Position numbers and translations under genes: made by a program. From positions 1-30,061 of IMG/VR virus record IMGVR_UViG_3300043331_000908: a stretch of 30,061 bases of DNA, one strand, 5' to 3'. Origin of the DNA: a virus. The notes under the pieces are model-generated. The model was given only the letters and a program-made list of their open reading frames with translations. It was not told the origin of the DNA and did no database searches. Positions 27,241-27,317 of the stretch are shown one piece after another. The first letter of the stretch is position 1. Each line of letters starts with the position of its first letter.

Positions 27241-27317
27241 TGATCGAGGGACCTGGATTCGAACCAGGGACCTTCAGGTTATGAGCCTGACGAGCTACCG
27301 GGCTGCTCCACCCCTCA
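27241..27317 (-). tRNA. Initiator-type tRNA-fMet (anticodon CAT)
   Basis: The 77-base gene folds as a cloverleaf on the minus strand. The acceptor arm is TGAGGGG with TCCCTCG; D stem GAGC/GCTC; anticodon stem TCAGG/CCTGA around CTCATAA (anticodon at 27283-27281); variable loop AGGTC; T arm CCTGG-TTCGAAT-CCAGG. Initiator features are the A11-T24 pair, the D-loop sequence AGCCCGGTA, a weak T1-G72 end pair, and two of the three usual G-C pairs in the anticodon stem (A29-T41 replaces the first). The encoded end is TCA, not CCA. The first three bases (TGA, 27317-27315) are also the stop codon of the outer-membrane protein gene. Confidence 0.92.

Follow-up and report, generated by a model that had tools for sequence, protein, structure and literature searches.

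The window, meaning the whole 30,061-nt stretch analysed here, corresponds to a linear virus record of 30 kb and encodes a P22-type portal, a P22-type coat protein, the large and small terminases, a head-closure gene and an endolysin. Relatives of its terminase in cellular genomes were mostly found in Hyphomicrobiales, the top match being a MAG labelled Betaproteobacteria. On the basis of these genes, the phage is probably a P22-like podovirus whose host belongs to the Hyphomicrobiales or is another alphaproteobacterium. A single tRNA gene lies in the interior of this contig, in the company of the portal, coat and terminase genes, and the phage-borne location claimed by an earlier reading made without database searches (the sequence-only reading) was therefore upheld. 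This tRNA gene directly follows a leftward gene for an outer-membrane beta-barrel protein (OMP) and is itself followed by a hairpin (Table 1), beyond which a gene at 26802-27074 and a DUF932-like gene are oriented opposite to the leftward OMP-tRNA unit. An 80-aa ORF upstream of the OMP gene, on the same strand, probably belongs to this unit as well. The DUF932-like gene (phrog_1362; window 24826-26190, plus strand), located between the tRNA and the small terminase, is present in the sister phage L003 (IMGVR_UViG_3300038421_000138) and has no match in L005, where the terminase comes almost directly after the OMP gene. In the early region of the sister phage (L069:5796-9000) there are genes for RusA, for an HTH/sigma-like protein and for a Toprim/DUF7146 primase-like protein.

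Table 1. Features of the OMP-tRNA locus, in window coordinates.
Feature	Position	Strand	Evidence
Initiator-type tRNA-Met(CAU), bases 1-73	27244..27317	-	ARAGORN, Rfam, pair table, syntenic L003 orthologue
Encoded 3' tail TCA, not CCA	27241..27243	-	Sequence; L003 has CCA
Outer-membrane beta-barrel gene, 221 aa; TGA stop (27317-27315) is tRNA bases 1-3	27315..27980	-	Pfam OMP_b-brl
GC-rich hairpin with a trailing UUUU, roughly 100 nt past the tRNA (probable terminator)	27085..27150	-	Fold
Conserved short ORF of 80 aa, 5' of the OMP gene	28185..28427	-	tblastn, L003 59%, L005 43%

ARAGORN called the gene as tRNA-Met(cat), the only tRNA in the window, and Rfam model RF00005 agreed with a full-length match (57.8 bits, E 3.4e-10), such that the initiator-type cloverleaf with a CAT anticodon, as first read from the letters, was borne out by a tRNA finder. 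All 21 of the 21 stem pairs were standard with U1-G72 counted as a wobble. Minimum free energy folding by itself did not return the cloverleaf, a failure that is common for unmodified tRNA sequences. The pairs U1-G72, G2-C71, A3-U70 and A11-U24 were present, together with A at base 73. There is no strong 1-72 pair, the U1-G72 wobble standing where the C-A mismatch is usual, and the D stem carries the purine11-pyrimidine24 combination in the form of A11-U24. The anticodon stem, A29G30G31/C39C40U41, consists of one A-U and two G-C pairs rather than literally three G-C pairs, but is of the rhizobial initiator type. Formylation is determined by a weak 1-72 pair, A73, G2-C71 and G4-C69, with C3-G70 a minor determinant in E. 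coli (PMC9976931). The first four marks are all found in the window tRNA, whilst the minor C3-G70 is replaced by A3-U70. Both the T-G combination at 1-72 and the TCA tail were present as the sequence-only reading had described them; the former is common to L003 and the latter is not, and the host CCA-adding enzyme would have to complete CCA on the TCA-tailed tRNA.

The OMP reading frame scored 37 bits against Pfam OMP_b-brl (cut-off 28.7), and a longer version of 264 aa begins at an upstream GTG. Its relatives in L003 (66% identical) and L002/L005 (61%) all end in FKLN. In the window this end reads TTC AAG CTC AAC TGA, and the TGA was indeed seen to double as the first three bases of the tRNA. 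The accompanying claim that 5' processing must cut the message at the stop codon presupposes that the OMP message is the precursor from which the tRNA is released. The hairpin downstream of the tRNA folded at -36.3 kcal/mol (z -4.8), with none of 200 shuffles as good, and is the probable terminator of the OMP-tRNA unit. A promoter and terminator scan reported no terminator at the hairpin, probably since the loop limit of the scanner is 8 nt, and its sigma-70 search, which is weak for this group, returned no promoter.

The closest comparison was provided by L003, whose portal and coat proteins are 78% and 91% identical to those of the window phage. L003 has a tRNA-fMet in the equivalent position, immediately behind its OMP gene and likewise with U1-G72, and both flanks of the window tRNA consist of phage genes that are conserved in L003. 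The two tRNAs differ at seven of bases 1-73; four of these differences are in stems (U-A to U-G, a double change from U-A to C-G, and G-U to G-C), and 21 of 21 pairs are kept, an outcome reached by only 1.3% of random sets of seven changes in simulation. Considering this pairing, the conserved U1-G72 and the compensated pair swaps relative to the host described below, the window tRNA is, from its sequence comparisons, real and maintained, with the pattern of a working and not a decaying tRNA. The suggestion that the gene is diverging was accordingly not sustained, as U1-G72 is kept in L003 and each stem difference preserves pairing. A tRNA pseudogene kept only as the OMP stop codon might be read from the TCA tail and from A3-U70 and U1-G72, which are unlike the host, but the intact pairs and compensated changes make this very unlikely, and a missing encoded CCA is not rare, being the case for 15 of 85 virus-borne initiators among the matches listed.

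An exact search of IMG/VR with the first 29 bases of the tRNA gave no match beyond the window, and a looser form of the search gave L003 as the sole match. Apart from L003, no tRNA was found in the relatives of the OMP, portal and terminase genes among the stretches examined; the OMP-gene relatives L002/L005, L046 and L047 are phage contigs of this kind. Given that the OMP gene is shared across the lineage, including contigs without the tRNA, the tRNA appears to have been gained or lost beside it.

Alignment of the window with L003 revealed that the spacing between the OMP gene and the tRNA differs by exactly 12 nt, with the frame preserved. In L003 the OMP gene stops at a TAG, the in-frame TGA of the tRNA lies nine bases further on, and there is no overlap. 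A loss of 12 nt relative to L003 would make the tRNA's own 5' UGA the stop codon of the OMP gene in the window phage, although either direction of change is compatible with the difference. The overlap therefore looks like a by-product of this length difference that is specific to the window phage; it is not a conserved device and need not be selected. An independent case was found in L099 (IMGVR_UViG_3300005614_000069), where the TAG of a GpA-family large terminase gene (7250-9187) falls at bases 3-5 of a tRNA-fMet that starts at 9183. As in the window, a genuine phage gene has its stop codon within the 5' portion of an initiator tRNA, but the different bases and the unrelated gene imply that the overlap arose independently. 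The other two of the three overlap candidates of the viral survey (L132 and L135) were probably spurious GC-rich ORFs, and a literature search found no papers on overlaps between stop codons and tRNAs. It is conceivable that, owing to the shared UGA, any one transcript can be used for OMP synthesis or for making initiator tRNA but not for both, in that ribosomes finishing the OMP would keep the acceptor stem open, whilst an RNase P cut at U1 would destroy the stop codon. We regard such coupling as doubtful; if true, the translation load on the OMP mRNA would set the supply of initiator.

The chromosomal tRNA-fMet genes of rhizobia (for example Agrobacterium, Zhengella and Stappia) are identical to the phage tRNA over bases 4-47, comprising the D arm and the anticodon arm with its AGG/CCU stem, and the anticodon loop CTCATAA is also that of the host. 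The rhizobial genes otherwise have a C1-A72 mismatch, C3-G70, another T stem, A57 and an encoded CCA, whereas the phage has U1-G72, A3-U70, G57 and TCA; in all, the two are separated by three complete pair swaps (3:70, 49:65 and 51:63) in addition to 1-72. The identity of the D and anticodon arms suggests that the tRNA is of host origin, the phage copy having since drifted, it would seem, in its acceptor and T stems through paired changes. The attribution of AGG/CCT to rhizobia in the sequence-only reading proved sound, as most initiator genes of the Hyphomicrobiales genomes examined have this stem. The motif with U1-G72 was found in 0 of 397 Hyphomicrobiales genomes, and its C1-A72 form in 43 of 61. 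On these counts, the change to U1-G72 appears to lie with the virus when compared with the host order, and it is within the range of other viruses.

The 44 bases shared with host tRNA-fMet might also be expected of an attP site, or of host DNA at a phage-host junction, and the sequence-only reading had named such an integration site among the outcomes that would overturn it. The contig contains neither a host junction nor an integrase, and phage genes conserved in L003 occupy both flanks. A crossover in the anticodon arm would moreover join the host C1 and C3 to the phage G72 and U70, resulting in a C1-G72 pair and a C-U mismatch at 3-70, so that the phage acceptor stem could not rebuild the host gene. 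We consider an attachment site or captured host DNA to be extremely unlikely.

Initiator tRNAs were found to be common among viruses, contrary to the premise of the sequence-only reading that phage tRNAs are normally elongators. At E 1e-5, 184 INPHARED records matched, including mycobacteriophages, Caulobacter, Vibrio, Gordonia and Lak phages and Sinorhizobium phiLM21, a few of the matches being short or unverified records that possibly hold host DNA. In IMG/VR, at least 120 stretches were picked up by a pattern scan. Published surveys concur: tRNA-fMet accounts for 9 of 25 tRNA genes in phage-related elements of S. meliloti (PMC11476347) and is the only tRNA of several phiLM21-like prophages (PMC12429752). 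The 1-72 pair was tabulated for 85 virus-borne initiators, made up of 80 general-scan loci among the matches listed and five U-G hits; a few host tRNA genes may be included where a hit is close to the end of its contig. The pair was C-A in 37, U-A in 11, U-U in nine, C-U in six, U-G in five (a count inflated by fetching contigs for that feature), A-A in five and G-A in four, with others making up the remainder and G-C found in only two; apart from these two, all were mismatches, U-A or U-G, so that 1-72 is mostly kept weak. CCA was encoded in 70 of the 85. Several phage initiators (L062, L063, L066, L068 and L073) have U73 or C73 in place of A73 and U-U, U-A or A-U at 1-72, and thus match the formylation determinants less closely than does the window tRNA.

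In the phiLM21-like prophages of S. meliloti, rhizobial phages of about 50 kb, an initiator is often the sole tRNA, as in the window, and in phiLM21 it is close to the terminase genes; however, the phiLM21 tRNA combines G1-A72 with a TGG/CCA stem, and no OMP gene abuts it. The Caulobacter Ccr, Mycobacterium Bixzunavirus, Gordonia GodonK and Vibrio phages also carry initiators with a drifting 1-72 pair, although in such large phages these are usually beside other tRNA genes, whilst the window tRNA is the only one in its contig. As judged from these sequences, the window tRNA would belong to a known kind, its U1-G72 being shared and probably tolerated and its AGG/CCU stem ordinary for the group; the TCA tail and the stop overlap appear private to the window phage, as far as seen here.

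The reading we consider probable is that of a functional, phage-encoded extra initiator tRNA (tRNA-fMet) co-transcribed with the OMP gene. Transcription of the OMP unit would run on through the tRNA and stop at the hairpin, at about 27,140-27,095; RNase P would then free the tRNA in front of U1, and its other end would be trimmed and CCA added. The mature tRNA could then be charged by MetRS and formylated, since 1-72 is not a strong pair, and would supplement or replace the initiator pool during infection. Because the stop codon is bases 1-3 of the tRNA, RNase P cleavage would remove it, and as a transcript so cut could not terminate OMP translation, any one transcript would yield OMP or tRNA but not both. 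As for the benefit to the phage, the simplest view is that the tRNA replenishes or boosts the initiator supply of the infected cell.

Two other benefits may be envisaged. The phage initiator could replace tRNA-fMet destroyed by VapC-like nucleases, or resist them through its changed acceptor and T stems. Some VapC toxins cleave initiator tRNA (cited in PMC10264068), and evasion of tRNases by phage tRNAs has been proposed in the same paper. The signature described there, a mutated anticodon loop, is however absent, the anticodon arm being that of the host, and phages tend to avoid tRNA-fMet where it is the target of VapC-LT2 (PMC10264068); a role in counter-defence is hence rather unlikely. Under tRNA-dependent lysogeny, a phage inserts itself into a host tRNA gene and disrupts it, its own tRNA-fMet then standing in for the lost copy; mycobacteriophages are the established case (PMC10865867), and the mechanism has been invoked for S. 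meliloti prophages (PMC11476347). A relative of the same lineage, G003 (portal 73%), carries a tyrosine integrase, but lacks the tRNA, and neither the window contig nor G002, which has the same tRNA, contains an integrase, though both are fragments. Rhizobial genomes may contain several copies of the fMet gene, S. meliloti 1021 having three (PMC11476347), such that the loss of one is not necessarily lethal, and the tRNA of phiLM21-like prophages did not match the integration site (PMC12429752). This form of lysogeny is accordingly less likely still. The position of a tyrosine integrase gene in a close relative, at the end of its contig (L004:126-1229, minus strand), was noted, and the gene suggests temperate members in the P22-like lineage.

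The window tRNA adds a small P22-like lineage to the phages with an initiator as their only detected tRNA, and its overlap with the OMP gene provides a clear example from nature of a message whose stop codon falls within the 5' end of a tRNA. Across viruses, the 1-72 pair of such tRNAs varies and is almost never G-C, and thereby offers a natural mutation series for tests of which 1-72 pairs permit formylation and initiation.
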